A stretch of 64,000 bases of DNA from Microbacterium sp. APC 3901. GTDB lineage: Bacteria; Actinomycetota; Actinomycetes; Actinomycetales; Microbacteriaceae. The notes below the pieces were generated by a model, which worked only from the letters and a program-made list of their open reading frames with translations, was not told where the DNA came from and searched no databases. Positions 34,931-52,177 of this stretch are shown one piece after another. Position 1 is the first letter of the stretch, and each line of letters opens with the position of its first letter. The position numbers and the translations under genes are program-made. The stretch is from NCBI RefSeq assembly GCF_030407765.1, contig NZ_JASDCU010000003.1:62001-126000 (forward strand), in the 5' to 3' direction.

Positions 34931-34936
34931 GGGGAG

Positions 34937-35932: not shown

Positions 35933-35953
35933 CCGATCGACGCGCCGGGCTGC

Positions 35954-37346
35954 TCATCTTCTCGGCGCGAGGGCCGCGATGATGACACGACGCGGCCCTG
36001 CATCGCCGATCAGCGACCAGGCACGTCCGGCATGCGGTCGCGCGTAGGGCGGGAGTTCACGCACACCCGCGAGTTGCCGCAGCTCGGTGCTGTTCTCTGC
36101 CCGGATGAGAGCCTCTCCCTCTCTTCGCACCCGCTGCCAGAGCGGCCAGTTGCGTTGCCAGGCGTCCGCTTCGCCGATCAGCAGCGTCGGACGCGTCGAT
36201 GCCTGCAGGTCGCGCAGTTCTCCCGAGAGCGCGACGACATCGCAGCCTGGATGGGCGTCCGCCAGCGATTCGGCGACCGTCGGCACCCCTGTGGTGACGA
36301 GCGCCGTAAGAGCGGAACGCGGCGACCAAGTGTGGTCGTCCCGATACCGAGAAGCACCGCGCTCAGTCCCCGACGATCGCAGTCGCTCCTCCGGGACCCA
36401 GACCAGCTGGACCTCGCGATCCCCCATCCGCATCCGCCCCGGCGGCCGATCTCGATCGAAGCCCGCGGAGTCCCCTCCTGCGGCGAGATGATCGACGCGG
36501 CTCGGCATCCTCAGCAGCCCGCGGCGAGGCAGCGCCTCGAGAAGCCGACCCAGGGGGCCCGCCGCTCGTGACGCTGTGAGCGCGAAGGTGGTTCCAGACC
36601 CGTGCCGCAGGATCTGCTCCCAGAGCTGTGCGACATGCTGACCGTACTCGGTCGGCAGCTCGCTGATCCTGACGTCGATGTCATCGCAGAGGACGAGACC
36701 CGCGCCGTGCGCCCCGTCTGCGGCCAGAGCTACCACGGCGTCCCACGCGCGCTCCGGATCGGACGGTATCCAGATCGCGTCGGCCTGCTGCGTAGCCAGC
36801 GCGCGCAGAGCCGAAGTGCGTCCAGACCCCGATCCTCCGAGGAACACGATTCCTCGGTCTGAGCCGATCGAGAGGAACTCGAGCGGCTGTCGCTGACGCT
36901 CCGGATCGTCGGCTCGCCCCAGGATGACGCCGCCCGTCTGCATCTCAGGCTCGACCGCGGCCAGTGGAAGCGTGCGTGGAAGCACGGGCAGCCAGGGGCT
37001 GCGCGGAATGTCGGCGTCGGCCCACCTCAGCGTGATGGCTCTCAGGTCGGCCGCACCCGTCAAGGCGACTCTCATCGCCATCGGTGCCGCATCCTGGGGA
37101 CGACGGACGAGCGCCAGGCCCCTGGACTCCACTCCGCCCGGAAGGTCAGCCGCGTCGTCGGTTCCTATGACAGCGCGGCTGTCTGCAGCGTCCGCGACAC
37201 GCAGACTCACTCGGAGCGGGCAGTTGGCCGCCAGGGCGTCACGAATCACCCCGGAGGCGCGCTGAGTTCCGAGGATCAGATGCATGCCGAGCGCTCTCCC
37301 ACGCGCGGCGATGTCGGTGAAGACAGCTCCGAGATCCGCATGCTCC
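35954..37346 (-). pseudogene. EccC/FtsK-type ATPase, 3' fragment cut by the island
   Basis: This is the C-terminal part (about 464 codons) of an FtsK/SpoIIIE-type ATPase. It starts inside the first ATPase domain just after Walker B, with GAVFTDIAARGRALGMHLILGTQRASGV, and includes a second ATPase-like domain with GGSGSGRT (Walker A with Lys replaced by Arg) and LVLCDDIDV. The host sequence ends at the attL core TGCTCC. The frame stays open into the island antisense to the integrase gene, but that extension is foreign and has no credible start, so the fragment is probably not expressed as such. Confidence 0.9.
37341..37346. other. attL core (TGCTCC)
   Basis: Left junction of the island. Host sequence lies to the left. 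On the island side GACACTTTAG (37359-37368) is an inverted match (9/10) of CTAGAGTGTC next to attR, giving the reconstructed attP arms dyad symmetry centred on the TG of the core. Confidence 0.85.
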
Positions 37347-37414
37347 AACTTAGGAGATGACACTTTAGAAAGTTGCGCTCCTCGCCCGTATAGATAGAAG
37401 GAAGGGCAGGGACC

Positions 37415-38923
37415 ATGACCGAGAAGAAGAAGGCCGCGATCTACGCACGCATCAGTGCGAAGGACGAGAAGGTGCCGAAGACCGCACAGCAGATCGAACA
37501 GTGCAGGAAGCTCGCCGCCGAAAACGGGTACGAAGTCGTCAGTATCTACGAGGATGACGGGATCTCTGCCTTCAATGGCACTGACCGCGCCGCGTACGAG
37601 TCCATGCTTGAGGACATCCGTGCTGGCAACTTCGATGTGATCTTGGCCGTGGAGGAGTCCCGGTTCACCCGTCAGGGCTTCGGAGAGAAGGACCGTCTCA
37701 TGCTCGCGTGTGTGGCCGGTGGAGCGTGCTGGCACACGACAAGAGAAGGATTCTTGGACCCCGCCACAGACTCGGGAGAGTTCATGGCAAGCCTTCGTGG
37801 CCTCTTGGACAACCTGGAGGTTAAGAAGAAGACCCGAAGGCAGAAAGACCGGTACGCCGAAGAGCGTGCTCAGGGGAAGCCACTGTGGGGAGGCAGACCG
37901 TTCGGGTATCAGGCGGACCGGCTGACCATCAATGAGGTTGAGGCCGACGCTATCCGTGAGTGCATCCGCAGAGTGCTGGAGAAGGACGCAACTCTTTACT
38001 CATGTGTCCGCTACCTGAATGATGACCTGAAGCTGAAGACGCCACGCGGGAACAACTGGAGCACGAACACGGTGAAGGAACTCCTCACCCGTCCACGCAA
38101 CGCGGGCATCTACATCGTCAACGGCGAAGCAATGGATGTCCCCGGCACCTGGAAACCACTCATCGACCGCACCACGCATGAGGCTGTGGTTGCCACGCTG
38201 AAGGCTCGGAGCAAGAGCACGCCGGGACGGAAGCCCCGGCACGTCGGCAACATGATTATCAGGTGCGGCGTCTGTGGCGAGCGGATGAGGTCAGCAAGCG
38301 ACGGACACGGCATCGCGATCTACCGGTGCAAGTCCAAGGCTGTGGAGTCTCACCCGGATTACAAGGACGGCAAGCGTCACTGTTCCATCCGGGTTCATTT
38401 CGTGGAGGAAGTCGTGAAGAAGGAGATTGTGAAGGCCTTCTTCATCGGGCACAACGTGCTTTCCGCGTCCACCAGCGAGGGCAAGGAACTCTCTAGCCTG
38501 TACGCCAAGATCGAAAAACTGAACAATCAGAAGCAAGACCTCTTGGCTTCGATTCGGGGAGAGGATGCCGTTCTCACAATGGCCGACATCACGCCTGACC
38601 TTCGAGCCATCAAGGTAGCTCTGGAGGCCGCAGAAGGCCAAGTAGAGGCCCTAACAGCCGAGAAAGCACATGCACGCATGCTGGAGGAGATTAGGCGCTC
38701 CATGGGCTATCTCGACTCCGCTACTCATCGTGTGGACTGGGACAAGGCAGAAGAGATGCACAACGCTCTGAGCGAGCGATACGACGCCCTGACTCTCGAC
38801 ACGAAGAGAACCTTGCTCGATGATCTTCTCGAAGTCACCATCGGGCCTGGACGGGGAGCCAAGAAGGTGCTGGTGCATCACAAGGTGGTCACCACGCTCA
38901 ACTCAGACGGTGACCTTGGTTGA
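37415..38923 (+). CDS. int: Large serine recombinase (integrase)
   Basis: This 502-residue enzyme should catalyse attP x attB integration of the island. The N-terminal catalytic domain has YARIS with the nucleophilic serine at residue 14 and the resolvase-family EESRFTRQGF helix. A recombinase domain (~160-270, GGRPFGYQ, NTVKELLTRPRNAGIYI), a zinc ribbon (~283-325, CGVCGERM ... YRCKS ... HCSIRVH) and a coiled coil (~355-440) follow, all typical of large serine integrases. AGGAAGGGCAGGG precedes the ATG. It lies 69 bp inside the left end, the normal position for such an integrase. Confidence 0.95.
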   Translation: MTEKKKAAIYARISAKDEKVPKTAQQIEQCRKLAAENGYEVVSIYEDDGISAFNGTDRAAYESMLEDIRAGNFDVILAVEESRFTRQGFGEKDRLMLACVAGGACWHTTREGFLDPATDSGEFMASLRGLLDNLEVKKKTRRQKDRYAEERAQGKPLWGGRPFGYQADRLTINEVEADAIRECIRRVLEKDATLYSCVRYLNDDLKLKTPRGNNWSTNTVKELLTRPRNAGIYIVNGEAMDVPGTWKPLIDRTTHEAVVATLKARSKSTPGRKPRHVGNMIIRCGVCGERMRSASDGHGIAIYRCKSKAVESHPDYKDGKRHCSIRVHFVEEVVKKEIVKAFFIGHNVLSASTSEGKELSSLYAKIEKLNNQKQDLLASIRGEDAVLTMADITPDLRAIKVALEAAEGQVEALTAEKAHARMLEEIRRSMGYLDSATHRVDWDKAEEMHNALSERYDALTLDTKRTLLDDLLEVTIGPGRGAKKVLVHHKVVTTLNSDGDLG

Positions 38924-39118
38924 GAGTTCCGGTGTCAGGCTGCTGTTGAGTCAGGGCCGCCATTATGTCGCGCAGGATCACCCCTGCGCGTTCCCACTGC
39001 ACAATCGTCACGGACAAGTGCACGACCGCACTAGTTGCGGCTCCCTCGGGTACACGGCTCTGGCCGCCCCAGGCAGCATCATCCTCCCGTAGAAAGCCGC
39101 GGCCTCTATGCTCGTGCT

Positions 39119-39760
39119 ATGGCTCTTAGTTCCGCGCGACTGCTCCTGAACTTCTTCAACGCAACCATTCAAGAAAAGTACACATACGCGTTTGAGGATC
39201 TCATCGCGGCGATCGCTGACATTCGTCGGCACATGCCGTTGTGGAAGGCGCAGGGGCACGACGTTCTGGCGTTCGAAGAAGCGATCCCCGCCTGGACCAG
39301 CTCGATAATCACTTACATGGTCGAAGGGCAAATCCGCAAGCCTGGGGGTATGCCTACGTCGGGCGATCTGGGCGTCCTTCGATGGGCGGCGAGCCTTCTA
39401 GACGCCGACACGCCCTCGCTGAGCGAATCTCAGCGAGGGGATATTCGCGAGATGGTCAACGCGGCGCGCGGAGTTTTGAGGGATGACGGCACCCTCCCGG
39501 AGTCCCTGAGGCTCCATATCATGACCCTCTTGCTTCACGTCGAATCAGTTCTCGATAATTTCGAAGTGATGGGAGACTTCGCTCTCGAAGATGCAGTGGA
39601 ACGTTTGCTGGGGGCGATGCGCTTCGCCGAGAACGTTTCGACTTCGGAGCCGAACGCTTGGCAGAAGTTCTACAGGGATTGGGTCCAGCCAGTAGCCACA
39701 GCGATCCTAGGCGGCTCCCCGAACACGGCCCTCGCGCTGACAACTCTTCTCGGCGGCTAG
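39119..39760 (+). CDS. Island protein of unknown function (213 aa)
   Basis: Not recognised. The protein is helical by composition, with an N-terminal segment ARLLLNFFNATIQEKYTYAFEDLIAAIADIR, a middle region rich in Leu and Asp, and a C-terminal weakly hydrophobic tail ending LALTTLLGG that could touch a membrane. The ATG at 39119 is chosen because TATGCT lies six bases upstream; the frame is open for 84 bp more. Its stop overlaps the stop of the next, convergent gene by four bases. It follows the integrase gene by 195 bp. Confidence 0.65.
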   Translation: MALSSARLLLNFFNATIQEKYTYAFEDLIAAIADIRRHMPLWKAQGHDVLAFEEAIPAWTSSIITYMVEGQIRKPGGMPTSGDLGVLRWAASLLDADTPSLSESQRGDIREMVNAARGVLRDDGTLPESLRLHIMTLLLHVESVLDNFEVMGDFALEDAVERLLGAMRFAENVSTSEPNAWQKFYRDWVQPVATAILGGSPNTALALTTLLGG

Positions 39761-40068
39761 ACAGCTTCAACGGCATTCCCCCATACCCAACACCGATACG
39801 TCTCCTCTTCTCCTCGGAACTCGATACCGGCGGCGAGGGGCGTCGATCTCATGAGCTTGGCGTCAACGCGTACTGCCTCTGCCCCGAACCTCACCCACGC
39901 ACGTACGCGGCGCTGGAGGGCGTGCGGATAGATGGTTACCGGCTGTTCCCGTAGGGCGAGTTCGCGCTCCGTCAGTGATTGAAGCGGGCCTCGCTTCGCG
40001 GCGGCTGTGACGGAAGCGCGAGCGGATCGAACGTCGTTCGCCGCTTTCAGTCTGTCGCTTGCACCCAC
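39757..40068 (-). CDS. Small island protein behind an SOS box (103 aa)
   Basis: Not recognised. The protein has a basic, Ala/Arg-rich N-terminal half and a C-terminal part with WVRFGAEAVRVDAKLM and YRCWVWGNAVEAV that looks like a small beta domain. The GTG start at 40068 has GTGAGG upstream. A LexA-type box (40110-40125) lies 42 bp ahead, suggesting induction by DNA damage. A small SOS-controlled protein beside an integrase might be an excision or directionality factor, but nothing in its sequence proves that. Confidence 0.6.
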   Translation of the reverse strand: MGASDRLKAANDVRSARASVTAAAKRGPLQSLTERELALREQPVTIYPHALQRRVRAWVRFGAEAVRVDAKLMRSTPLAAGIEFRGEEETYRCWVWGNAVEAV

Positions 40069-40109
40069 GGCCCGAACCTCACCCTTTGTGGATACAAGGA
40101 TACCAAGAT

Positions 40110-40125
40110 TCGAACATATGTTCTA
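40110..40125 (-). promoter_or_regulatory. LexA-type SOS box
   Basis: TCGAACATATGTTCTA matches the actinobacterial LexA operator TCGAACNNNNGTTCGA at 11 of 12 defined positions, and contains the perfect 12-bp palindrome GAACATATGTTC. It lies upstream of the 103-residue protein gene, with TATCCT-like -10 candidates on the minus strand nearby. Confidence 0.75.
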
Positions 40126-40139
40126 TTGCCTTGACGAGC

Positions 40140-40304
40140 CTAGCTCAGGCGAGCGGCTCCGCACTGCGGGCAGTGCCAGTGCTCGCCGCGTGCAGTAGGT
40201 GTCGGTTCCATCGTCGACAGGCAGTGTCGACAGTTGGGCGTGGCTCCATCGACGTCGTCACCGTCTGTGAACTGGATCGACTCATCGACGGGAGGCAAGA
40301 TCAT
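40140..40304 (-). CDS. Small zinc-ribbon protein (54 aa)
   Basis: The 54-residue protein has two CxxC pairs, NCRHC and HCPQC, separated by 17 residues, which form a likely zinc ribbon. The ATG overlaps the stop of the preceding gene as ATGA, so it is translationally coupled to it. Its function is unknown; such miniature ribbons often bind nucleic acid or proteins. It is too short to stand out alone but the overlap and cysteine pattern support it. Confidence 0.65.
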   Translation of the reverse strand: MILPPVDESIQFTDGDDVDGATPNCRHCLSTMEPTPTARGEHWHCPQCGAARLS

Positions 40305-40576
40305 AGATACTTGGCAGCGGCTGCCGAGAACGTTTCTTGCGCCTTGAATTGGGGGATGTTGGCGGCGCGGAACATATAGTCCTCCCGGACGACGTTGCCA
40401 TAGTAGTAATGGCCGCCATCTCGGTCGTGGGCTACAGACCACGTGTCAGAGTCGAGTCGCAGACACTTGACGATTTGCCCCTCGCTCCAAGCGATGGAGA
40501 ACTCTCGGCCCACAGGGAGGTCAAGCGCTTCGTGTTCACGGATTGCCCTGCCGTGCACGTCGGTGTATCGAGCCAT
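40301..40576 (-). CDS. Small island protein of unknown function (91 aa)
   Basis: Not recognised. The 91-residue protein begins MARYTDVHGRAIREHE and has a central part rich in Trp, Tyr and Asp (WSVAHDRDGGHYYYGNVV). TAGGGT lies six bases before the ATG on the minus strand, supporting a leaderless start. It is coupled by a four-base overlap to the zinc-ribbon gene and is divergent from the TIR gene, 66 bp away. Confidence 0.65.
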   Translation of the reverse strand: MARYTDVHGRAIREHEALDLPVGREFSIAWSEGQIVKCLRLDSDTWSVAHDRDGGHYYYGNVVREDYMFRAANIPQFKAQETFSAAAAKYL

Positions 40577-40642
40577 GTCGTTACCCTACGCGCGCACGGT
40601 CGGGGCATGCGACCTGCCGCCCTTGCTCGGTAGCATCCAGAT

Positions 40643-41458
40643 GTGGATAAGTACTCGTTAAGCACCCCAGGACGCATCACCGTCGAGTTCGTGCGTGAAG
40701 TTCTGGCACTCGCCCGCGAAGCGTTCGCCCTGCCAATCACCGTTGGCTACTCAGCGGCGGGCGCTGGCTTCGAGACCGAAGTGATGTTCGGCGACGAAGA
40801 GCAGCTTCTCCGAATCGCAGCGCGCGACTTGGTTTCGTTCCGAATCCAGATCTCAGACGACCGTGCGCTGAACGGTTACATAACCGTGAGTCTGCGCGCC
40901 GGTGTTGTGACTGTCGCGAGTCAGGCATTCGAACCGGTGGAGGGCGAAGAAGTCGTCCACGATCTCCTGGAGCGGGTTCCGGCTCCCCACGAGCCCCCCA
41001 ACGGCGGGCTCTCAGCAGCGATACTTCCCGAACCGTTGCCAACCATGAAGGTCTTCATTGGGCACGGCGGTGATGACAAATGGCAGACGGTACGAGACAT
41101 CGTGGCGGCGGCTGGCTATCGCACTGAGAGCTTCGAGCGCGACACGCGAAACGGTACTCACATTCTCGGGACAGTGCTGGACATGGTGCGAAGCTCTGAC
41201 GTCGCGATCATCGTCATGACCGGAGCGGATTCTGTCGACGGGCACCCGCGAGCGCGAGAGAACGTGGTTCATGAGCTTGGAGTGGCCCACGCGGCGCTCG
41301 GTCCCCGCAACACAGTCATCATGCTGGAGGAGGGCATTTCGGAACCTTCGAATATATCCGGGACCGATCAACTCAGGTTCGCCAACGGTGACATCTACTC
41401 CAGCAAGGACAGGCTGTTGTTCGTGCTCCAGACGCTCGACCATGAACGCGCACAGTAG
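40643..41458 (+). CDS. TIR-domain protein (CAP12/Pycsar-type TIR, PF10137-like)
   Basis: The 271-residue protein has an unrecognised N-terminal domain (~1-125) and a C-terminal TIR-like domain (~134-250): KVFIGHGGDD at its start, SSDVAIIVMT in the middle, and RARENVVHELG with the putative catalytic glutamate at residue 211. Related TIR domains in CBASS and Pycsar systems cleave NAD when activated by a cyclic nucleotide. No cyclase gene is visible nearby, so the N-terminal domain would have to sense something else, or the protein works alone. The GTG start has TAGCAT six bases upstream. Its stop faces the resolvase stop three bases away. Confidence 0.85.
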   Translation: MDKYSLSTPGRITVEFVREVLALAREAFALPITVGYSAAGAGFETEVMFGDEEQLLRIAARDLVSFRIQISDDRALNGYITVSLRAGVVTVASQAFEPVEGEEVVHDLLERVPAPHEPPNGGLSAAILPEPLPTMKVFIGHGGDDKWQTVRDIVAAAGYRTESFERDTRNGTHILGTVLDMVRSSDVAIIVMTGADSVDGHPRARENVVHELGVAHAALGPRNTVIMLEEGISEPSNISGTDQLRFANGDIYSSKDRLLFVLQTLDHERAQ

Positions 41459-41461
41459 GAG

Positions 41462-42037
41462 CTACTTGCTCTTCGTGATCCGGTACACGGTGGCAATGCT
41501 CACTCCGAGAGCCTTCGCGATGTCCGGGACACTCTCCCCTGCACTGCGAAGCATCTGCGCCTGACGGGCCTGTGCACTGTCCACGCTCCTCGGTCGTCCA
41601 CCAACACGGCCTTGAGCCTTTGCGGCTTGCAGGCCGGCGACAGTACGCTCCTGGATGAAGCTACGTTCCATCTCTGCGAAGATCGCCAGCATCTGGAGCA
41701 TGGCCCGTCCAGTAGGGGTGCTGGAGTTGAGGCCGTCGCTCACGGACTCGATGAAGATCCCCTTCTCGGTCAGGTCTGCGATCAGAGAGGCTACGTGAGC
41801 CGTAGACCGTCCAAGCCTGTCGAGCTTGTACACCGTGATCGTGTCTCCCGGCTGTGCATCTGCGAGGAGAGCATCAAGACCTTCACGCTTCACTTTCGAA
41901 CCGGATACCCCGTGATCGGTGTACCTGTTGCGCTTCAGCACCCCCGCCTTGTCGAGCGCGTCATGCTGGAGGGCTTCGTCCTGCTTGCCCGTCGATACGC
42001 GGAGGTAGCCAAGCTTCGTGCCCGTCGTCATATCCAT
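41462..42037 (-). CDS. Small serine recombinase (resolvase/invertase)
   Basis: The 191-residue protein is a classical resolvase/invertase: GYLRVSTGKQ with the catalytic serine at residue 15, KLDRLGRS, FAEMERSFIQERT and a C-terminal helix-turn-helix (VPDIAKALGVSIATVYRI). It could resolve dimers of an excised circular island or belong to an older nested mobile unit. ATG at 42037 follows GGGAGC; an upstream in-frame start is less likely. A hairpin lies 150 bp upstream, separating it from the operon at 42315-43756. Confidence 0.92.
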   Translation of the reverse strand: MDMTTGTKLGYLRVSTGKQDEALQHDALDKAGVLKRNRYTDHGVSGSKVKREGLDALLADAQPGDTITVYKLDRLGRSTAHVASLIADLTEKGIFIESVSDGLNSSTPTGRAMLQMLAIFAEMERSFIQERTVAGLQAAKAQGRVGGRPRSVDSAQARQAQMLRSAGESVPDIAKALGVSIATVYRITKSK

Positions 42038-42189
42038 GCTCCCAGTGTCGCAGATACCCGTATGTTTATGCAACTCAAAAAGCTACGGGTTCTGACGTGC
42101 CTTCCGGGTAACCGGCTCTCCCGGAATCTCGGGCCGGGGGGCGAACCATCACGATTCTTAAGTGAGCATCGTTTTTGCGAGAGCAGAGA

Positions 42190-42232
42190 ACGGCCCCGGC
42201 AAGTGAAAGAAGTAAAGCCCTGCCGGGGCCGT
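42190..42232. terminator. Hairpin between island operon and resolvase
   Basis: Perfect 12-bp stem (ACGGCCCCGGCA / TGCCGGGGCCGT) with a 19-base loop. Together with the hairpin at 42273-42308 it should stop transcription from the four-gene operon before the resolvase gene. Confidence 0.7.
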
Positions 42233-42272
42233 GGAGGGTGCCACCCTCTCCCTGCGAGGAGGATGACGGGAT

Positions 42273-42308
42273 CTGCTGGGCGCGGAACTCGACTAACGCG
42301 CCCAGCAG
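42273..42308 (-). terminator. Terminator of the four-gene island operon
   Basis: Perfect 12-bp stem (CTGCTGGGCGCG / CGCGCCCAGCAG) with a 12-base loop, starting seven bases after the last stop codon of the operon. Confidence 0.8.
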
Positions 42309-42314
42309 AAGTTT

Positions 42315-42545
42315 CTAGTTCTTGCCCTTGCCCAAGATGTCGCCTAGCAACCCTGCCAGACGGTCAACCTCGGGGTTGGCTGACGGAGCGGAGGTCAGGC
42401 GGCGTACCTCGGGGTTGCTCGGATCGAGTGCCTTCTGAATGTCGGCTTCCGTCCACGTAGTGAAGTTCTTCTGCTCTTCGATGGCGGCTCGCTCGGCATC
42501 CCCATTGGATGCGATCACGGCCCTCAGCATTGCGTCGTCAGTCAT
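42315..42545 (-). CDS. Small acidic island protein (76 aa)
   Basis: Not recognised. The 76-residue protein is acidic with two copies of a short NPEV motif (SNPEVRRLTSAP and ANPEVDRLAGLL) and a Lys-rich end. It is the last gene of an operon of four; its start overlaps the previous gene by eight bases. Confidence 0.65.
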   Translation of the reverse strand: MTDDAMLRAVIASNGDAERAAIEEQKNFTTWTEADIQKALDPSNPEVRRLTSAPSANPEVDRLAGLLGDILGKGKN

Positions 42546-42813
42546 TTTCTAGTTCTCTCTGTTCGGTGGCCAGGTAGGCGGCTCGATGCTTCGTGATGGA
42601 CTCGCGGAAGGAATCAAGAATCCATCCGGCATCGATGTCGTGGGATGCGGCATAGGCCTGCAGATGTTCTACGGCGTCTCGATGGCCCTGCTTGTAGCCG
42701 TGGTCCTCGATGGCCTTCGCGTGACTCTCGACCGACTCGTGTGTGGCTACCTTCGCGAGAGCCTTGAGTACGAGGTCATCTAGAGATCCGCGCTCGATCT
42801 TCGTACCGGTCAT
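42538..42813 (-). CDS. Small island protein (91 aa)
   Basis: Not recognised. The 91-residue protein is probably all helical, with many His and Glu residues (ATHESVESHAKAIEDHGYKQGHRDAVEHL). Its ATG overlaps the stop of the 143-residue protein gene by four bases, indicating translational coupling in the operon. Confidence 0.65.
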   Translation of the reverse strand: MTGTKIERGSLDDLVLKALAKVATHESVESHAKAIEDHGYKQGHRDAVEHLQAYAASHDIDAGWILDSFRESITKHRAAYLATEQRELEND

Positions 42814-43241
42814 CGGATCACCGGGATGTGCTGTGGACCCTGCGCAATCGGGTTCAGCGCGTCGCCGTACTCCACCTGCACTTTCTTGAGGGCGAGGGCG
42901 CGGTCCATAGGATCACTGATTCGCTCGGCGTATGCTTTCGCGGCCTGTCCCTGGCGGTAGCGGTAGCCTTCGTCATCCCCACCCACGGCCATACCCTCAG
43001 GACGTGGCCCCTTGGCCCACTTCACGCAACCGTAGCGAGCTACCTGCTCGGCGTCCGTGAGATTAAGCCATGAAGCGCCTGTGCGGTCGAGAGTCGCTTC
43101 GTACAGCTCTTCGGTGACCTCGAACTCTTCTCCTTGTCGGAGCACTCGACCGGGGGCCGCGTCACCGGCGAGAGTCACAGCGGGAAGGGTCAAGCCGCTG
43201 GCACGGCAATGCGCGATGAAGGGGAATCGTGAATCGGTCAT
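42810..43241 (-). CDS. Island protein of unknown function (143 aa)
   Basis: Not recognised. The 143-residue protein has an N-terminal part that looks like a small beta domain (VLRQGEEFEVTEELYEATLDRTG) and a C-terminal helical part ending in PQHIPVIR; such composition is frequent among actinophage proteins. It overlaps both neighbours by four bases, so it is coupled with the HTH gene upstream. Confidence 0.65.
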   Translation of the reverse strand: MTDSRFPFIAHCRASGLTLPAVTLAGDAAPGRVLRQGEEFEVTEELYEATLDRTGASWLNLTDAEQVARYGCVKWAKGPRPEGMAVGGDDEGYRYRQGQAAKAYAERISDPMDRALALKKVQVEYGDALNPIAQGPQHIPVIR

Positions 43242-43756
43242 TTGGTGTCTCCAGATGTGAGGGTGCGTAGGGCCATGCGGACTTCCTTGAGGGACGAATA
43301 GTCGCGCATGGTGAGGATGAGAGAGCGCGCCGCTTCAGGGTTGCTCAGAGCGAATTCGCGAAGGGCGCGGATCAAGTCGCCGGTCTGCTCCATGAACTCA
43401 GCCAACGTCACATCTTCGATGCCGAGACGGTCCGTGAGCGTGGTCAGGATGTCGGCCTCGGTCTTGATGGCCCTGGCTCGGGCGGCGGCATTGCCACTCG
43501 TGCGCGTGAGTCGGCGCAGGGCCTGGGCATCGTCAGCGGCTTCTAGCATTCTCGGGATGAGTTCTACGACGTTCGGCTCATCGTTCAGCACTCGGGCCAG
43601 CGGTGCCCGTGACAAAACAAATCGAGATAGCGAACTCCGGCTTACCCCGAACTTCGCGCTAATCGAGCGGTACGGCTCTCCCGCATTTAGGGCCGCTTCG
43701 ATCTCCGCTCGGGCGGGATGGACGGCAATAGTGCTCGCTTTTCCTTGGTTCGCCAT
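43238..43756 (-). CDS. Helix-turn-helix protein, first gene of island operon
   Basis: The 172-residue protein has a helix-turn-helix near the N-terminus (RSISAKFGVSRSSLSRFVLSR) followed by a long helical region. This resembles small terminase subunits or transposon/phage regulators, but no large terminase is present. The ATG at 43756 is chosen because AGGAAG lies at proper spacing; another ATG two codons earlier is too close. The inverted repeat at 43779-43890 upstream might be its operator. Confidence 0.7.
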   Translation of the reverse strand: MANQGKASTIAVHPARAEIEAALNAGEPYRSISAKFGVSRSSLSRFVLSRAPLARVLNDEPNVVELIPRMLEAADDAQALRRLTRTSGNAAARARAIKTEADILTTLTDRLGIEDVTLAEFMEQTGDLIRALREFALSNPEAARSLILTMRDYSSLKEVRMALRTLTSGDTK

Positions 43757-43778
43757 GTGCATACTTCCTAGTGTTTAG

Positions 43779-43890
43779 TAGCGAATGGGCAGAGTATGTA
43801 AGCTTTCGTGCCCATGCACGGGCGGAGTATCCAGGGCTGAACCAACCACTATGAATCTCGTGCAATCCCCGCTCAGGTTCCCATTCGCTA
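43779..43890. promoter_or_regulatory. Paired 11-bp inverted repeat upstream of the HTH operon
   Basis: TAGCGAATGGG (43779-43789) and its exact complement CCCATTCGCTA (43880-43890) flank 90 bp just upstream of the HTH gene. A pair of distant operators bound by the HTH protein is one reading. Function is inferred. Confidence 0.45.
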
Positions 43891-43953
43891 TACCTTTACT
43901 ATCGCGCGAAGTCCGGGACACTGCGATCTGTCCCCGCTTGAGTGAGACTGATC

Positions 43954-44322
43954 TCAGGCCGCCTTCGACATTTCCTTGAGGTCTGCGATCCACTGCCAGG
44001 CTTGTTTCTTGGTTGCCGAATCCCAGTCGAAGGTTTGCCGTCCGTTCTTCTCCACGTCGAGATTGCGACCGTACGCCACTTGTTTTGGCGTAGCCATTTC
44101 GCCAGGCTGAGATTTATTCCCATTTTTAGCGACCAATTCTTTCAATTTTGGGACGATCCCTTGGGCCCAGACTTGATCTCTGTTCTGCATGATCCACTGC
44201 ACGAACCCATCCCGGTGCGTCGGCACCGGTACGCCACGGGCGTCTTGCTTGCGGAAGGGTTCACCTGCCTGATCCCAGAGGTCTGCGATGAAATCTGCTT
44301 GCTTCTTGCTGATTCCTGACAT
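43954..44322 (-). CDS. Island protein with TPKQ-type repeats (122 aa)
   Basis: The 122-residue protein contains two related segments, SKKQADFIADLW at the start and TPKQVAYGRNL near residue 80, and ends in a Trp/Lys-rich helix (KQAWQWIADLKEM). This kind of KQ-x-x-(Y/F)-x-x-(D/N)L repeat occurs in phage and plasmid replication accessory proteins, but that is a resemblance only. AAGGAC precedes the ATG closely. Confidence 0.6.
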   Translation of the reverse strand: MSGISKKQADFIADLWDQAGEPFRKQDARGVPVPTHRDGFVQWIMQNRDQVWAQGIVPKLKELVAKNGNKSQPGEMATPKQVAYGRNLDVEKNGRQTFDWDSATKKQAWQWIADLKEMSKAA

Positions 44323-44430
44323 GTCCTTAGTCCTACCCAGTAGCTCGGGTTCGCCGGGGCGACGGTCGAGCGATCTCCACGATTTTTGTTCTTGGTTCCA
44401 CCGAGCGAAGCGATGATATTAGCTTTCGAG

Positions 44431-44514
44431 ATATGAGATATGAGGTCGAGTGATGGCCCGCTACCGGACACACTCCGCCTTAAGACTCATATCTTGAAAC
44501 CTCATATCTCATAT
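44431..44514. repeat. 16-bp inverted repeat with CTCATATCT units
   Basis: ATATGAGATATGAGGT at 44431-44446 is exactly complementary to 44499-44514, with another CTCATATCT at 44486-44494 in the 52-bp spacer. The units overlap, giving an iteron-like cluster. Confidence 0.85.
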
Positions 44515-44648
44515 TGTCTTCGCTTCGCTTCGAGCCTCATAACTAATAACGCCCAATTCGTAGTACCTATTCCCAATTCGTCCAAGATTCTTGGAATTCT
44601 TTTAAGGTCGCGTGTTACATACGCAACATATACATGAAGAGGGACGAG

Positions 44649-44679
44649 AAAGGCCCCTCTCGTGTAGAGAGGGGCCTTT
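44649..44679 (-). terminator. Terminator after the CxxC island gene
   Basis: Perfect 13-bp stem (AAAGGCCCCTCTC / GAGAGGGGCCTTT) with loop GTGTA, with T residues on the minus-strand side; it lies 82 bp after the stop codon at 44761. Confidence 0.85.
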
Positions 44680-44760
44680 GCGGCGGAGTCGAGTGCGTGG
44701 ATGAAGTAGGACTCAGTGTATTTATACGCCCGAGTCGGCTATTTACCAAGATGTCTCTTT

Positions 44761-45363
44761 CTACTGTGATGAATCTCCAGAACGCATTGCGACTCGCTCC
44801 GCACGCCTTGCGACTCGCTTTTCGCGCTCCCGTCCGTTGGCGGAAGCCTTCGAGGCGCGGCACATTTCACAGCGACAGCCTTTCTGGTACAGCGTCAGCG
44901 AGCCATGCTGAGCCTCGGGCCTGGGCTTCGGTTCGGGTTTCGGAGTCGCCGGTGCCTTCGGCCTTTGGTCGTCGTACCTACGGTTGACGCTCATGAGCGG
45001 TCGCCGCTCTCGCACCTGCTCGGCTGTAGCGGTCTTCGTCGCCGGTCCCCACGTCACCGTTACCGGTCGGTGTTCGGGCGTGGTGCCCTCGGTACGATCC
45101 ACGCGCTTAGAGGGGCACTGAGGGGTCTCTGAGGGCCTTTCGGCTATCGCTTGGGCATGTGCCGCCCGTGCCGCATGATCGGCCTTAAGGGCGGCTTCCA
45201 GGTTCTCGCGTACCCTGCGATCTTCCTCGCGTGCGAGGAAGACTAGGCGGGCGCGCTCGGCATCCGTTCGAGTATCGGCGGCGAGCACAGCGAGATGGCG
45301 TCGGCGAGCTTCTGGCAGGTCGGTGAGACTGCGGATGGCGCGGAGGGCGTTGGAGAGTTCCAT
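44761..45363 (-). CDS. Arg/Ala-rich island protein with C-terminal cysteine motif
   Basis: The ~200-residue protein has a helical, charged N-terminal half, a Pro/Lys linker, and a C-terminal motif HGSLTLYQKGCRCEMCRASKA followed by a basic tail. The GCRC..CR motif is common in small actinophage and plasmid proteins and may bind zinc or nucleic acid. Starts at 45363 (ATG) or 45387 (GTG) are both possible; neither has a strong ribosome binding site. It is one of the genes next to the repeat region. Confidence 0.6.
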   Translation of the reverse strand: MELSNALRAIRSLTDLPEARRRHLAVLAADTRTDAERARLVFLAREEDRRVRENLEAALKADHAARAAHAQAIAERPSETPQCPSKRVDRTEGTTPEHRPVTVTWGPATKTATAEQVRERRPLMSVNRRYDDQRPKAPATPKPEPKPRPEAQHGSLTLYQKGCRCEMCRASKASANGREREKRVARRAERVAMRSGDSSQ

Positions 45364-45483
45364 ACCCTTTACCATCGAACGATTCACGGATGCCTAAATG
45401 GGTGGACTCTGCGACATCGAAGTATGCGTCGCGATTCCCGCACACGTGCGTCTGAAGATTGCGCCGAGACTAGCCTTGGCCCC

Positions 45484-45711
45484 ATGAGTGAATTTACGGA
45501 CGCGCTGAGAGCGCTCAACGACGACGAAGACAAGTGGCACGCAAGAGACCGTCAGATCCGCGAAGAGCGCGGTGTGCCTGACGACGTCCCGCTGGTGACG
45601 CGGGACTCGGACTCAGAGTTGATGCAGCATATGGCGGAACTTCAAGAATTGAACCGCAGGTGGGCGGAGTTCAACGCGACACACGCTGGCGCGGACGACG
45701 AAGCAAGCTAG
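45484..45711 (+). CDS. Small acidic island protein (75 aa)
   Basis: Not recognised. The 75-residue protein is strongly charged, mainly Asp and Glu, and probably helical (LMQHMAELQELNRRWAEF). The ATG at 45484 lies seven bases behind TAGCCT, the leaderless spacing seen at many genes in this window, and the longer upstream frame is not used. Confidence 0.55.
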   Translation: MSEFTDALRALNDDEDKWHARDRQIREERGVPDDVPLVTRDSDSELMQHMAELQELNRRWAEFNATHAGADDEAS

Positions 45712-45760
45712 TTCCGAGACGAACTTGGCCTTCGCTCGTGCAGGAGGGGCTTAGCGCGAC

Positions 45761-47032
45761 CTACTGCCAGACGCGCCCCACGATACTGATCGGGTCGGTC
45801 TGAATGATGAGCCAGGTTCCGCGCGGATCGCCTTCTAAACGCGAGCGCTTCTCGGCATCGACGTATACCCATCGCAGTTCCGACTCCCGAACCTCACCCC
45901 CAACGGTGAGTCCAACCGTCACATGGGCAAGTGCGAAACCGCGAACATCGACGCGCCGCACTTCATACCCCTCTAGGGGTTGTCCCTCGAAACGCGAGCG
46001 GACCACTCCGATGAAGGCGTTTCGAGACTTCGGCTTCGTGAACTCGTGCAGGAACGGAGCTAGTCGCCCATAGTTTTTCGCGATCCAGGCGTCCAGCATC
46101 GCGACTGTGGCCTCAACCACCGGCTCGGACATCACCGTTTCGAGGCCGTCCACCTGCACATCACTAGCACGCGGCTTCCATGCATCCATCTTCTTGCGGT
46201 CGGCGGCTGTGTCTGCCATCTTCGCGAGCGACTCGCGAAGGGTCGGTTTGGGGTCTTCGGGCTTCTTTGCCTGTTCGATGGCCTGCGCCCAGTCGATGAG
46301 CGCGAATAGGCGGTTCCACGCCTTGGAAGCGACGATGACGTTGTCGAAGTTCGTGAGGTTCCCGTGCATGATTCCGTTGCGGTACAGCTCGTACACCGGT
46401 TCAGCGCTGGTTTTGTTGAAGCTCTTGGTGAACGACTTCTGAGTTGCGGCGAGGCCTTGGTGATGAGCGGTCATGGAGTTCCACGCGACAAGCTCTTCAC
46501 CGTCCCGTGTGTGCAACCCTCGTCGCTGGTTACCAACGTCGTTCACAAAGCCGTCCATGACCGCGAGCAGCACGAGCACCGCGGCGTAGTAGCGTCCGTC
46601 AAGGTAATCACGGAACGCCGCATCGAGCAGTTCGGCCCTCGCGCGCATCTCCGGGACGTTCTTGGCTCGCATCAGAGCGGACCTCATGCGCTCTGGGTCC
46701 TGGTACTGAGCGATCACCGCGTTCTCAACCGCGTCGGGATCATTGGTGCTGACCGCCTCGACCAACGGATCAAGCCTCAGCGAACCATGGAAGACCCAGT
46801 GCCGCTCGCCCACAAGTTGGTAAAACCGCTCGACCGTACCAACGATGCGTTCAAAGTCCGCTTTCAGCTTCTTGAAGTCTGCCCTCATGGATGGCTTGAG
46901 TATCAAGATCAGACTCATCGCCGTCATCTGATCGCGCATCTGCTTGTACTCAGGGATGTCGTATGCGCTCGGGTAACCAGTACTCGGCGGCGGATCGATG
47001 TCACCCCTGCCAGGCTTCGTTGGTCGTGGCAT
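45761..47032 (-). CDS. HEPN-like protein (RxxxxH motif) of the island
   Basis: The 423-residue protein has a helical N-terminal half. A helix pair (YYAAVLVLLAVMDGFVNDV, ~149-167, and VYELYRNGIMHG, ~213-224) carries R218-N-x3-H223, the Rx4-6H signature of HEPN ribonucleases with the usual polar residue after Arg. The C-terminal ~130 residues look like an unrelated beta domain. It may be an RNase effector, but without a fold comparison this is tentative. GGGAGGA precedes the ATG. It is divergent from the SIR2-like gene, 73 bp away. Confidence 0.7.
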   Translation of the reverse strand: MPRPTKPGRGDIDPPPSTGYPSAYDIPEYKQMRDQMTAMSLILILKPSMRADFKKLKADFERIVGTVERFYQLVGERHWVFHGSLRLDPLVEAVSTNDPDAVENAVIAQYQDPERMRSALMRAKNVPEMRARAELLDAAFRDYLDGRYYAAVLVLLAVMDGFVNDVGNQRRGLHTRDGEELVAWNSMTAHHQGLAATQKSFTKSFNKTSAEPVYELYRNGIMHGNLTNFDNVIVASKAWNRLFALIDWAQAIEQAKKPEDPKPTLRESLAKMADTAADRKKMDAWKPRASDVQVDGLETVMSEPVVEATVAMLDAWIAKNYGRLAPFLHEFTKPKSRNAFIGVVRSRFEGQPLEGYEVRRVDVRGFALAHVTVGLTVGGEVRESELRWVYVDAEKRSRLEGDPRGTWLIIQTDPISIVGRVWQ

Positions 47033-47105
47033 GTGGTTCCTCCCAAGGTCGATCTTGCCTCACACCACCGACAGGCGCGGATCCGCTCCGCGATAAGCTC
47101 ACGAG

Positions 47106-48146
47106 ATGCCGCCTCGTATCCTGTCTTTTGATGAAGCCTTGCTCGACGCGCGGCGGAAGAGCAGCCAACGTTCAATCCTGCTAGGCAATGGATTCAGCAT
47201 CGGCTACAACCCATCGATTTTCAGTTACGACTCTCTCGCGGACGAAGCCGAGCTTGCCGGGCTGTCGGTCGCGAAGCCCGCTCTGTTCGACGCGCTCAAA
47301 TCGAGCAACTTCGAAGCAGTCATTGACAAGCTCAATGCCTCCTCAAGCCTGTTGACGCTTTATAACGGAGACCGGGAGCTTGCGGCAACGATGGCGGCTG
47401 ACGCTATAGTCGTGAGAAATGGTTTAGCTGACGTTCTCGCTAACCGTCACCCGGTGAACGCTCAAGGGCTGAGTGACGAGGAGGTCCTTCATGCTCGTAC
47501 GTTCTTGTCGAATTTCCGTCAGTTCTACACGCTCAGTTACGACCTTCTTTTGTACTGGGTGGTCACGCGCACCGGAGTAGGTCCGTACGTGCATATGCGA
47601 GACGGGTTCGAGTGGCCCGCATGGAATGATCGAAGCGCTCTGATCTGGAAATCCAAGCCAACCCAGGGACGCCAGCGCGTGTTCTTCCTACACGGGGCGC
47701 TTCATCTCTTCATCCGAGGCAAGAAGCTGGAGAAGTTGTCTTACCGTGAGCACGGCTCTCTTGTGGGCGAACTGCGATCCCGACTAGATGACGATAACTA
47801 CCCCTTGGTGGTCACTGAGGGGTCCCGCCCGGAGAAGGAAGCCCGCATCGAGCGCAGCGGCTATCTCAGGTTCGGGCTGCGCCGGTTTGCTGCAACCGAG
47901 GGCGCGCTGTTCATCCACGGGGTATCGATGAACCCAAACGACGACCACATCCTCGAATTGATCGAATCGGACTCTAGTCGGGTCAGCGCAATCTATGTTG
48001 GCGTGCATGGTGACCCCGCCTCGCCGGACAACCGCCGCTTGATCGAACGCGCGAAGGAGATGAAGAATCACCGTCGTACCGTGGGCGGTGAGGCCCTACG
48101 TGTGCGATTCTACGATTCTGACAGCGCAAGAGTTTGGCGAGGCTGA
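47106..48146 (+). CDS. SIR2-like protein (DUF4917 family)
   Basis: The 346-residue protein matches the DUF4917 family throughout: ILLGNGFSIGY (24-34), YTLSYDLLLYW (141-151), FFLHGALHLF (193-202) and ALFIHGVSMNPNDDHILELIE. The family resembles SIR2 NAD-binding proteins. The segment YTLSYD corresponds to the SIR2 TxNxD-type motif with Ser in place of Asn, so NAD cleavage cannot be taken for granted. Many SIR2-like proteins in mobile islands deplete NAD during phage attack. TAAGCT lies six bases before the ATG. It is divergent from the HEPN-like gene. Confidence 0.85.
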   Translation: MPPRILSFDEALLDARRKSSQRSILLGNGFSIGYNPSIFSYDSLADEAELAGLSVAKPALFDALKSSNFEAVIDKLNASSSLLTLYNGDRELAATMAADAIVVRNGLADVLANRHPVNAQGLSDEEVLHARTFLSNFRQFYTLSYDLLLYWVVTRTGVGPYVHMRDGFEWPAWNDRSALIWKSKPTQGRQRVFFLHGALHLFIRGKKLEKLSYREHGSLVGELRSRLDDDNYPLVVTEGSRPEKEARIERSGYLRFGLRRFAATEGALFIHGVSMNPNDDHILELIESDSSRVSAIYVGVHGDPASPDNRRLIERAKEMKNHRRTVGGEALRVRFYDSDSARVWRG

Positions 48147-48195
48147 TCGATCACGTGCGTGGTTCAAGACGGCGCTACTTCATCTCTAGTCCGGC

Positions 48196-48537
48196 TTAGC
48201 TGACAGAGTCGGGTTCGTCTAAGTCAAGGTATGCGAGCACGTCAGCCAAGCTTGCGTCGGGGCCAACAAGAGTCTCCCGGGCACTTATGTCGTTGAGCGA
48301 GAACAGCCCATCATCCTCTTGCAGGTACAGGCCCCGCTTGTCAGCGTATGCGGACGCGATGTCCTTCTCTGTTGGCGTCTCCGCTTCGGCCTCCTCGATG
48401 CCCCACGCAATCGCGTCAAGCATCGCGGCGGCGCGGTGCAAACGCAGCGGATCGTCCGTGCGGAGCGCAAGCCGCGCCGTTGCCTCCGCAGCCTTGTGGA
48501 TAGTTGTCGGCCAAGTGAACTCAGGCTCTGTTGTCAT
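48196..48537 (-). CDS. Island protein of unknown function (113 aa)
   Basis: Not recognised. The 113-residue protein has a helical N-terminal half (HKAAEATARLALRTDDPLRLHRAAAML) and an acidic C-terminal half. TAGTCT lies six bases before the ATG on the minus strand, supporting the start. It stands convergent with the SIR2-like gene. Confidence 0.6.
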   Translation of the reverse strand: MTTEPEFTWPTTIHKAAEATARLALRTDDPLRLHRAAAMLDAIAWGIEEAEAETPTEKDIASAYADKRGLYLQEDDGLFSLNDISARETLVGPDASLADVLAYLDLDEPDSVS

Positions 48538-48739
48538 GGCCGCAGACTAGTGCACAGCGCGCTTAGAACATCGCCAACATGTGGACTACATCAACGGGAT
48601 CGGCGTCGTGCCGTACGCGCATCAGCACGACAGCACAAACGGGAACCACACCCCTCACAACTTCACCGCTCGCGCTGCCGCGTTCCTCACTGGCTGACGA
48701 GACCAACCACACGCTCTAGGCATGCCCTAGATTTCACTC

Positions 48740-49396
48740 ATGGGCGAAGAATCTCAATCTCACACGCACGACGCACTGTCGGCCCTCAGCAGGCGCATCC
48801 AACGAACTTATAAGTCACGTGTCGAAACAGCGCGGCGTCATCAAAAACGAGGGAACTACTGGAACTTCGCCCTGGTCGTCGCATCGCTCACGGGTACATC
48901 GGTGGCAGTCGTATCGCTCACTGAACCATCTGTGTACGGTGAGCGTGGTTCGGCTTTGATGGTGGTACTCGGAATCGTCACTCTCGTGGTTTCCGTCCTC
49001 GTTACAAGCGCGCAGTTCCAGGTACAGGCAGAGAAGTTCTTTCACGCATACCGAAGCCTTCAGAAGCTGTGGGTGGCGTCCGATCTTGCAACGCGTTCGC
49101 TTGCCGACACGGATGAACGAAACAAACGTGCCGACGAGATCGACCGCGATTACCAGTCTGTCCTCGACGACACCGATAACCACAGCCCTGCCGACTTCTT
49201 CAAGGCGTTCCCCGGCGAGATCAAACGGGACAAACCATCTAGCGTCGATCCCGCCGATCGACTGTCGGTCGTGGGGTTCTTCAAGAGGAAGCTGATAGTA
49301 CTCGGGAGCAATATCTTCACCTTCCTTCCCGTCCTCGGGAGCACGGCCTTGTTGCTGCTCCTGACTCCAGCAGTCAGATGGTTAGTCGGTCTCTAG
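48740..49396 (+). CDS. SLATT-like membrane protein
   Basis: The 218-residue protein has a basic helical N-terminus (LSRRIQRTYKSRVETARRHQKRGNYW), two closely spaced membrane helices (~43-61 and ~72-90), a long charged helical region, and a third membrane helix at the C-terminus (~187-214). The first part fits the SLATT pattern of two-helix effectors found with nucleotide-sensing defence systems and thought to form pores. The third helix is an addition. TAGATT lies six bases before the ATG. Confidence 0.7.
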   Translation: MGEESQSHTHDALSALSRRIQRTYKSRVETARRHQKRGNYWNFALVVASLTGTSVAVVSLTEPSVYGERGSALMVVLGIVTLVVSVLVTSAQFQVQAEKFFHAYRSLQKLWVASDLATRSLADTDERNKRADEIDRDYQSVLDDTDNHSPADFFKAFPGEIKRDKPSSVDPADRLSVVGFFKRKLIVLGSNIFTFLPVLGSTALLLLLTPAVRWLVGL

Positions 49397-49470
49397 AATC
49401 CGTTACATGTGGCTCGCCACCACAGCCCAACCTCTAGCAATGTTCAACCTATGACTGCCCCGGGGACAAG

Positions 49471-49508
49471 GGAAGACCCACCGTCCAAGATCGACTGATG
49501 GGTCTTCC
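49471..49508. terminator. Bidirectional terminator
   Basis: Perfect 10-bp stem (GGAAGACCCA / TGGGTCTTCC) with an 18-base loop, between the SLATT-like gene and the convergent small gene at 49518. Confidence 0.75.
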
Positions 49509-49517
49509 TGCGTCCGG

Positions 49518-49742
49518 TTAAAGGGTGATGCGCAAGGCAGTCACCGCGCTGGCGCTCGCGATGGCGTGATGACCAACCGCTTCAAGCGCGTCCTCATCCA
49601 CGTCACGCTTCAGCAGAGTGCGGTACAGCGCGTTCAGCTTCCACGTGGCCATCAGAGCTTCAGACACCAACTGCTCTGTCCTCAGCTTCTCGAACTCTCC
49701 CATCAGGCGGTCGATCTCAGCTACGGGGTCGATTTCGGTCAT
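49518..49742 (-). CDS. Small island protein near attR (74 aa)
   Basis: Not recognised. The 74-residue protein is probably a helical bundle (DPVAEIDRLMGEFEKLRTEQL...). The ATG at 49742 follows GAGGAG at a suitable distance; the frame is open upstream but without such a site. It is the last gene before the right end of the island, leaving 180 bp noncoding up to attR. Confidence 0.6.
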   Translation of the reverse strand: MTEIDPVAEIDRLMGEFEKLRTEQLVSEALMATWKLNALYRTLLKRDVDEDALEAVGHHAIASASAVTALRITL

Positions 49743-49909
49743 TTTCCACTTCTCCTCAGCGGAGCGGGCGTTTCCCTCTCCTGTTAACTGATACGCATGA
49801 GACATGCCGATCATCAAAGGACCTCCGGAAAAACTTGCGACGGGTCGACGAAGCGCCCCACCCTGCGATGCGGGAAGTCAAAATCCTCGGGCGGCGCTAG
49901 AGTGTCCTA

Positions 49910-51301
49910 TCAGGGGTAGGAGTGCTCCTGAAGCAGCGCGGCGAACTCGTCGACCACGATCACCAGCCTCGCCATTCCGATCTCACGCACATCACGTGCG
50001 CCGGCTTCCGCGAGGACCGACTCACGGCGGCGCAGCTCCGCCGTCAGGCTGGACACTCCCCTGCGCGCACCCTCTTCATCCAGATCCGTGATCACAGCGG
50101 CCACCTGCGGGAGCATCCGAAGCGGCTCGAAGGCTGTGCCCCCTTTGAAATCCGCCAGGACGAACGTCACTCGGTCCGGCCCGTGGCCGCTCGCCATGGC
50201 GGTCACCCACGAAACCAGCAGCTCGCTCTTGCCGCTGCCGGTCGTGCCGGTCACGATGGCGTGCGGCCCGTCGTCGACGATGTCGAGGAGGGTGTCAGTT
50301 CGCTCGCCCCGGCCCACCACCGCCGCCAATCCGATCCCCGATTCGGGCTGGCGCAGGTCGCTGAGCGCCACCCCTGGCGGCAGGGAGTCCAGCTCGTCGC
50401 CCTCACGCGATCTCTCTTCTCCGATCGCGATCGCCTGATCTCGGGACATGCACTCGGCGGCGACCTCGATGATCCCCTGCGGCGTGCGGACGCTCGCGCG
50501 GTGCGGCTCGACGACGTCGATGACCGTCGCGATTCCCTCAGGGACGTCCTCGTCGCGGCCGAGCAGCCAGATCACAGCATCAGACGACGGGTGAGAGTCT
50601 CCGCTTCGGGTCACCGCCAGACGAAACGCACCGCGCCGCGCGAAACGCGATTGTGGGAACCCCGCGATTCCGAGTTCCTCGAGATGCGGGCCGAGGATCG
50701 ACATCTGAGCGGCGCCGAACCGCAGACAGAGCTGCACGACGAGCGCTCGAGCGACGGAGGCGACGACGGGGTGCGCACCGCGCAATCCGACACCCCCGCT
50801 GAGCGGAACCGTGATCGGCACGCTGTCGAGCCTGGCGCATCGAGTCCGGAACTCGCGTTCGCGCTCTCCTTCCCCTCCCGATGCGCGCACTGCGCTGGCG
50901 CCGACTCCGCTGCCGACGACGATCTCCGTGTCGGCGTTCGGTGATTCGAGGCCGCGCAACGGCGGTTGCGCAAGACCGGCCGCAGCATCAGGATGACGGT
51001 GCCATCGCATCTGACGCTCGTCGTCGTGGAGCTGCGACAGCTGTGCTTCAGCGAGCGACCACGCCGCCGCGCTCTCGATCTCGGCGACGCGGAACGCCTT
51101 TCGCCGGGAACGCGCCCCGTCGATCAGCGACGCGAAGATCATCAGGGGTCCGAGAGCCGCGAAGCACAGCGAGAACAGCGAGCCGGTGACGAGCCAGAGC
51201 ACCACTCCGGCGACCACCGGCACGAGTGCAGCGATGAACGGGGTGGGTGGCCTGCGAGCCGGCACAGGGGTGGCAGGGATCGCTATCGGCAGAGAGTCCA
51301 T
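49910..51301 (-). pseudogene. EccC/FtsK-type ATPase, 5' fragment cut by the island
   Basis: The host-coded part encodes two membrane helices (~21-60), a middle domain with RWHRHPDAAAG as in type VII secretion EccC/EssC proteins, and the first ATPase domain with GTTGSGKS (Walker A) and IVVDEFAALLQ (Walker B). The frame then enters the island and stops after five codons (EHSYP, TGA at 49912-49910). The missing remainder is at 35954-37346. Start ATG at 51301 is preferred (G-run upstream); ATG 51319 or GTG 51346 are alternatives. Such a truncated protein lacks part of the ATPase core and is unlikely to work. Confidence 0.9.
49923..49928. other. attR core (TGCTCC)
   Basis: Right junction of the island. 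Host ATPase-gene sequence begins directly to the right. CTAGAGTGTC (49897-49906) on the island side is the counterpart of GACACTTTAG near attL. Confidence 0.85.
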
Positions 51302-51370: not shown

Positions 51371-52177
51371 CTAGTCCGGTGTGGAGAAGGACTCAGCCGG
51401 TGCGGGGGACGACTCGTCCGCGATCTGCACGATGACGAGCGTCACGTTGTCGCGGCCTCCGTTCTCCAACGCCGCCGCGAGCATCGCATCGACGGCAGCG
51501 GCGGGATCGGCGTTCTCGCGGAGGAAATGTTGGATGCCGTAATCGGTCAGCTCTTTCGTCAGCCCATCTGAGCAGATCACGAACCGGTCGCCCGGGCGGA
51601 CATCGAGCGTGACGTAGTCGGGAGCAGTGAGCTCACTCGCCCCCACCGCTCGTGTGATCACGTTGCTGTACGGGTGCCCTTCGGCCTCTTCGGGGCTGAT
51701 CTTGCCTGCGGCGATGAGCTCCTGGACGACAGAGTGGTCTGTGGTGATCTGCACCAGACGCTCGTCCCTGAGGAGGTACACGCGAGAGTCGCCGATGTTG
51801 AGCGACGTCCAGTGCGGCTCATCGCCCTCGAACTCGAGGAAGACTCCGGTGAGTGTGGTGCCGGTGCCTTCGTCCGTGGTCTCGGGATGATCGGCGATGT
51901 CGGCGACGGCCAGCTCGAGCGCACCCTCGATGGATCCGCGATCGACAGCGCCCGCGGCGACGACGGCGTCCAGTCGTTTGACCGTGCTCTGGCTCGCGAT
52001 CTCGCCACCGGCGTGACCCCCCATGCCGTCGGCGACGATGAACAGCGGGTAGTCCGCGAAGAACGCGTCCTGATTCGATTCACGGCGCCGACCGACATCG
52101 GTCACACCCGCCCAGGAAAGCAGCAGCGTGCGCTGCGCAACCGTGACGCTGCGCGTCTTCGTCGTCGTCTCAGCCAC
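51371..52177 (-). CDS. PP2C-family serine/threonine protein phosphatase
   Basis: The 268-residue protein has the full set of PP2C metal-site motifs: RRESNQDAFF, VADGMGGHAGG, GTGTTLTG, NIGDSRVYLL, TTDHS, ICSDGLTKELTD and GGRDNVTLVIV. It dephosphorylates Ser/Thr residues of proteins in the cytoplasm. The GTG start has GGAGG six bases upstream. It lies directly upstream of the interrupted EccC-type gene in the same direction, so it probably shared a transcript and perhaps a regulatory link with that secretion-type ATPase. Confidence 0.94.
   Translation of the reverse strand: MAETTTKTRSVTVAQRTLLLSWAGVTDVGRRRESNQDAFFADYPLFIVADGMGGHAGGEIASQSTVKRLDAVVAAGAVDRGSIEGALELAVADIADHPETTDEGTGTTLTGVFLEFEGDEPHWTSLNIGDSRVYLLRDERLVQITTDHSVVQELIAAGKISPEEAEGHPYSNVITRAVGASELTAPDYVTLDVRPGDRFVICSDGLTKELTDYGIQHFLRENADPAAAVDAMLAAALENGGRDNVTLVIVQIADESSPAPAESFSTPD

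Follow-up and report, generated by a model that had tools for sequence, protein, structure and literature searches.

A probable serine integrase island with defence-type cargo splits an orphan EccC/FtsK-like ATPase gene in Microbacterium sp. APC 3901

A 12,576-bp island carrying putative anti-phage genes was located inside a 922-codon orphan EccC/FtsK-like ATPase gene of Microbacterium sp. APC 3901 (contig NZ_JASDCU010000003.1, positions 62,001 to 126,000; this stretch of 64,000 nucleotides is called the window below). Most likely, with a probability of roughly 0.82, the island was inserted by its own large serine integrase, carries defence cargo, and descends from an element whose integrase was exchanged, the loss of the ATPase being a tolerated side effect. 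It is an ordinary kind of island in an unusual target, with a readable history, and no sign of a regulated switch was found. What appears to be new, as judged from sequence comparison, is a sister island with shared backbone and cargo at another target (genome G316), together with a likely fossil attP in the island of the window. Coordinates are given in Table 1.

The hexamer TGCTCC was found at both edges between host and island. It occurs 52 times in the window against 45.9 expected, so the hexamer by itself is weak evidence; comparison with relatives makes the split real. Host flanks joined at TGCTCC amounted to 2,766 bp, or 922 codons with a single, terminal stop, and read VDEFAALLQEHADLGAVFTD over the junction; an intact orthologue of 922 amino acids (L003) reads VDEFAALLQEHSDLGAVFTD at the same position. 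In the nearest relative found, Microbacterium G100, the site is empty: the flanks aligned at 91.7% over 5,348 columns (32000-37346) and 91.3% over 5,079 columns (49923-55000), and the two alignments overlapped by exactly 6 bases, the core. Overlaps of 6 bases were likewise observed in G208 (flanks 83.9% and 85.3%) and G243, and overlaps of 14 and 10 bases in G101 and G121. Empty sites hold a single core copy, as against identical copies at both island ends, and the core position reads TGATCC in G100, G101, and G208. No gap separated the two ATPase parts in 85 of 86 fetched loci, a set in which certain genomes are counted twice under different handles; in the last, L127, nothing aligned close to the junction. 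GC content was 0.591 in the island and higher, at 0.686 and 0.662, in the flanking 10 kb on either side. A first-pass annotation of the window had described an island splitting one ATPase gene after Walker B, with in-frame rejoining at a shared TGCTCC. The 922-codon join and the empty sites in G100, G208, and G243 uphold this description, as does the position of the junction (residues 459/460) relative to VDEFA at residue 450. We give almost no credence to a misassembly that placed the island in the gene: the sequence is a draft of 29 contigs, but both junctions lie inside one contig of 282,691 bp, the edges coincide exactly with the att core, and the database cluster of the truncated ATPase product (P0138) holds six member sequences. 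Given those six members, the split gene may also be present in other strains.

Across the genus, 118 of 366 Microbacterium genomes, that of the window included, matched the 5′ piece at E ≤ 1e-100. The annotation had expected one uninterrupted gene in relatives, and indeed none of the other 117 genomes was interrupted at the core. The open frame continues past the junction in 116; in the remaining one, G272, the frame breaks earlier and the alignment is unbroken across the core. Frames shorter than 900 codons were found in five of the 117 (G121, 571; G272, 424; G243, 794; G040, 796; G312, 815, starting at a contig end). G121, G272, and G243 were considered as further insertions at the core and rejected; their sequence continues unbroken past it, so their short frames reflect frame changes elsewhere. 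Among the weaker homologues in a smaller set of 59 genomes were a gene divided into two frames (G017) and a dozen or so genomes whose ATPase matches were only distant. The gene is thus common, with occasional losses; with its frame broken or missing in several relatives, the target appears dispensable.

The integrase gene begins 68 bp inward of the left core, its frame is complete, and all three of its Pfam domains scored above cut-offs. Together with the att core and the empty sites of relatives, these domains bear out the earlier attribution of the split to a large serine integrase island. The rebuilt attP contains a dyad centred on TG, with 15 of 22 pairs complementary, a score matched or beaten by 2 of 20,000 shuffles and by 18 of 12,490 island windows; TG is likely the crossover dinucleotide. 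Since TG opens the core and this position reads TGATCC in relatives, the other four bases, CTCC, are probably a chance likeness of attP and attB. The best protein matches to the integrase were 67% (P0002, from Microbacterium sp. 2216-1), 59% (P0003), and 55% (P0004) identical, and in a family-wide search over 398 genomes, matches at E ≤ 1e-60 came from two others. No relative above 40% identity was among the matches listed from the 366 genus genomes, no close one was detected in scans of genome contigs or of viral contigs, and none above 60% was found in phages or plasmids. Large serine integrases often disrupt genes, and a catalogue of their elements defines target genes by such disruption and reports conserved coding targets (PMC10083194). 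The island resembles those elements in having an integrase beside its att site, a conserved coding target, precise boundaries, and empty sites in relatives; it differs in its orphan EccC/FtsK-like target and in the likely fossil attP. The text of that catalogue makes no mention of FtsK, and we found no literature tying a serine integrase attB to eccC.

The split gene had been called a secretion-type ATPase, a label that found no support. Like EccC of the type VII secretion system, it encodes an FtsK/SpoIIIE-type ATPase with a membrane N-terminus, as judged from its sequence, and EccC gave the best solved-structure matches to both pieces (PDB 4nh0, 7np7). However, both of the intact orthologues tested, L003 and L004, failed the NCBIfam models, with 182-187 bits for EccCa and 143-170 bits for EccCb (L003 alone: 182 and 143) against cut-offs of 509 and 347 bits. 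A 1,611-amino-acid protein encoded on contig C26 of the window's genome clears both cut-offs (887 and 808 bits); this EccC is intact, with two WXG100 genes about 5 kb away. A genome-wide scan returned eight WXG100-like matches, five of them over cut-off and none on the contig of the window. We therefore rejected the identification as a type VII EccC and named the gene an orphan EccC/FtsK-like ATPase. Unlike EccC, it has about 920 residues and is kept beside PP2C and ATP synthase genes, outside a WXG100 cluster. All ATPase parts were present in 86 of 86 loci, within a conserved order of ATP synthase, PP2C, and asparaginase; PP2C adjoins the ATPase in all but two, which are short contigs, and the ATPase is probably paired with this phosphatase. 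No relatives of the ATPase were found in viral contigs.

Several island genes belong to defence families, which suggests a defence island: PADLOC gave strong matches in three of nine island proteins scanned, where PDC names denote candidate systems. No phage structural or packaging genes were detected in the island with Pfam (16 of 16 gene calls) or PHROGs (10 of 16), scans that leave out the open reading frame (ORF) at 45295-45711 on the plus strand. The helix-turn-helix (HTH) protein was tested as a small terminase; its model (predicted local distance difference test, pLDDT, 74) had no significant fold match, and the one weak terminase family match came from one of 16 relatives of the protein. 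A tblastn search found no phage relatives of three backbone proteins.

A DNA search of 361 genus genomes returned long cargo matches in G315 (87% identity over 45761-48157 and 48215-49432), G143, and G316. By protein search, a backbone of resolvase, 143-amino-acid, HTH, and HNH-like proteins was found in G160, G085, and G316, sometimes with cargo. The G316 sister island, of 12,170 bp, shares this common backbone and cargo: seven of 16 genes are homologous and in the same order. It differs in the cargo in its middle, in its integrase (26% identical), and in its target, a split 65-codon ORF that is whole in G195 and is called pilin-like from its sequence and neighbouring genes rather than from a family scan. 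Weakly pilin-like sequence follows the SLATT end in G315. As a separate observation, contig C24 of the window's own genome carries another serine integrase (L198:9074-10168; 27% identical to that of G316) adjoining the genome's intact pilin-like gene, within about 8.7 kb that is missing from the G316 counterpart.

Within the island, one short segment resembles the two ends of the G316 element once joined, and is likely a fossil attP. When the two halves were searched separately, their best places directly adjoined (25/41 and 24/34 identities; runners-up 23 and 21). The right half is expected from the shared cargo, so the weight rests on the position of the left half. An ancestor of the island thus likely used a G316-like integrase, since lost, before the present one took over; with a sister island at another target, the replacement likely changed the target as well. 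A protein search found no remnant of the lost integrase at the fossil, where at most its first codons could remain.

We envisage the following events. The island would descend from a pilin-targeting relative through replacement of the integrase; the present integrase likely recombined a circular attP with attB inside the ATPase gene, cutting at the TG of TGCTCC. The gene now consists of two open pieces, the 5′ one stopping 15 bases past the core, and the ATPase would be off while the island is inserted. Since the gene is uninterrupted in relatives, precise excision by the integrase and a putative directionality factor would restore it, the frame being exactly recovered as with any conservative excision. 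Meanwhile the island may spread anti-phage cargo (TIR, DUF4917, SLATT), at the tolerated cost of the ATPase. Four points weigh against this account: no directionality factor was recognised, a promoter scan upstream of the integrase gave no sigma-70-type site, the anti-phage role of the cargo is read from family matches only, and the comparison of nonsynonymous to synonymous rates (dN/dS) is too weak for dating the insertion. The first of these, and the rearrangement recorded by the fossil attP, would also suit an insert unable to leave, with the ATPase gene simply lost; we regard this as improbable, since the integrase frame is complete, the core copies are identical, the attP dyad is kept, and both gene pieces are undamaged.

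The annotation had further proposed a reversible off switch, citing comK prophages. In a regulated switch of that kind, the timing of excision, set by the cell or by the island, would confine ATPase activity to some conditions. We consider this very unlikely. Exact restoration of the frame on rejoining follows from conservative recombination by any serine integrase, and by itself is no indication of a switch. Constraint on the gene pieces was not detectably relaxed: dN/dS against G100 was 0.17 and 0.14 (0.12 and 0.17 for the G100-G101 pair), and amino-acid to synonymous changes unique to the window stood at 28:33, compared with 142:214 for the remaining sequences (Fisher p = 0.40). Such constraint fits repeated excision and a recent insertion equally. 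A conserved switch would be expected to show recurrent occupancy, but the site is occupied in only one of the 118 genomes with the gene (one metagenomic protein, below, hints at a second case); close integrase relatives are rare, and the ATPase frame is broken or missing in certain relatives. According to PMC6597384, phage regulatory switches, or active lysogeny (comK, hlb), depend on regulated excision. The island shares with them an insert that splits a gene restorable by excision; it differs in its lack of detected phage genes and of recurrent occupancy.

A length-limited protein search for broken ATPase copies listed 120 proteins, 97 with the DEFA motif. Besides the product in the window, only one of the 97, the metagenomic P0140, departs from the family right after the motif, at EHPDL, three residues past the window's junction; 18 other rows flagged by a crude filter were normal homologues continuing or breaking further on. 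An integrase, P0027 (30% identical to the island's, 43% to that of G316), has a database entry like that of P0140 in source and contig size (4,015), and the two may share one contig. P0140 thus hints at a second insertion near the same junction. Extended further, the codons after Walker B would be a common landing site for islands with unrelated integrases, and a defence-island lineage would swap integrases between genes of envelope machines (pilin-like, EccC-like), each arrival arming the cell against phage while reversibly silencing such a machine; we hold this to be a long shot.

The integrase, attP, and attB are exactly delimited for Microbacterium, and would make a useful genetic tool if active. 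Defence-like cargo is common to islands with different integrases and targets, a change that the likely fossil att site would record.

Table 1. Features of the split ATPase gene and its island (window coordinates).
Feature	Position	Strand	Evidence
3′ part of EccC/FtsK-like ATPase gene, 463 codons including stop, second P-loop	35954..37346	-	tblastn and synteny in 86/86 loci; solved-structure match EccC 4nh0
attL core TGCTCC	37341..37346		edge of alignment to empty sites
Island, 12,576 bp between core copies	37347..49922		missing from empty sites of G100, G101, G208; lower GC
Large serine integrase, 502 aa	37415..38923	+	Pfam Resolvase, Recombinase, Zn_ribbon_recom; PHROG 95 integrase
213-aa protein, no family match	39119..39760	+	
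103-aa ORF, DNA recurring in dozens of Microbacterium genomes	39757..40068	-	
91-aa ORF, no family match	40301..40576	-	
271-aa protein, CAP12/Pycsar-type TIR domain	40643..41458	+	PADLOC PDC-S35, 8.4e-12
Small serine resolvase/invertase, 203 aa, backbone	41462..42073	-	
91-aa ORF, no family match	42538..42813	-	
143-aa backbone protein	42810..43241	-	tblastn in G160, G085, G316 elements
174-aa HTH backbone protein	43238..43762	-	
122-aa ORF, no family match	43954..44322	-	
208-aa backbone protein, weak HNH-type match	44761..45387	-	
423-aa cargo protein, conserved RNGIMH string	45761..47032	-	
DUF4917 protein	47106..48146	+	PADLOC PDC-S21, 4.1e-100
113-aa cargo protein	48196..48537	-	
SLATT_5 protein, two transmembrane segments	48740..49396	+	PADLOC RTasSLATT, 2.7e-47
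Likely fossil attP junction of G316-like element	49389..49463	+	49/75 identities to joined G316 ends; next best in window (either strand) 36/75
99-aa ORF, no family match	49518..49817	-	
attR core TGCTCC	49923..49928		edge of alignment to empty sites
5′ part of ATPase gene, 459 codons, Walker A and B of domain 1	49923..51301	-	frame closes at stop at 49910
PP2C phosphatase gene, directly upstream of split gene	51371..52177	-	neighbour in 84/86 loci

Two observations concern individual island genes. Homologues of the 423-amino-acid protein occur in three further genomes at 68-92% identity, and an RNGIMH string, which we take to be a putative HEPN-like motif, is invariant among them; the protein's predicted model (pLDDT 39) was too poor for use. 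The 103-amino-acid ORF, with no Pfam or NCBIfam match, is overlapped by a repeat of about 235 bp (39767-40005) that recurs at roughly 68-80% identity in the genomes noted in Table 1, sometimes twice per genome.

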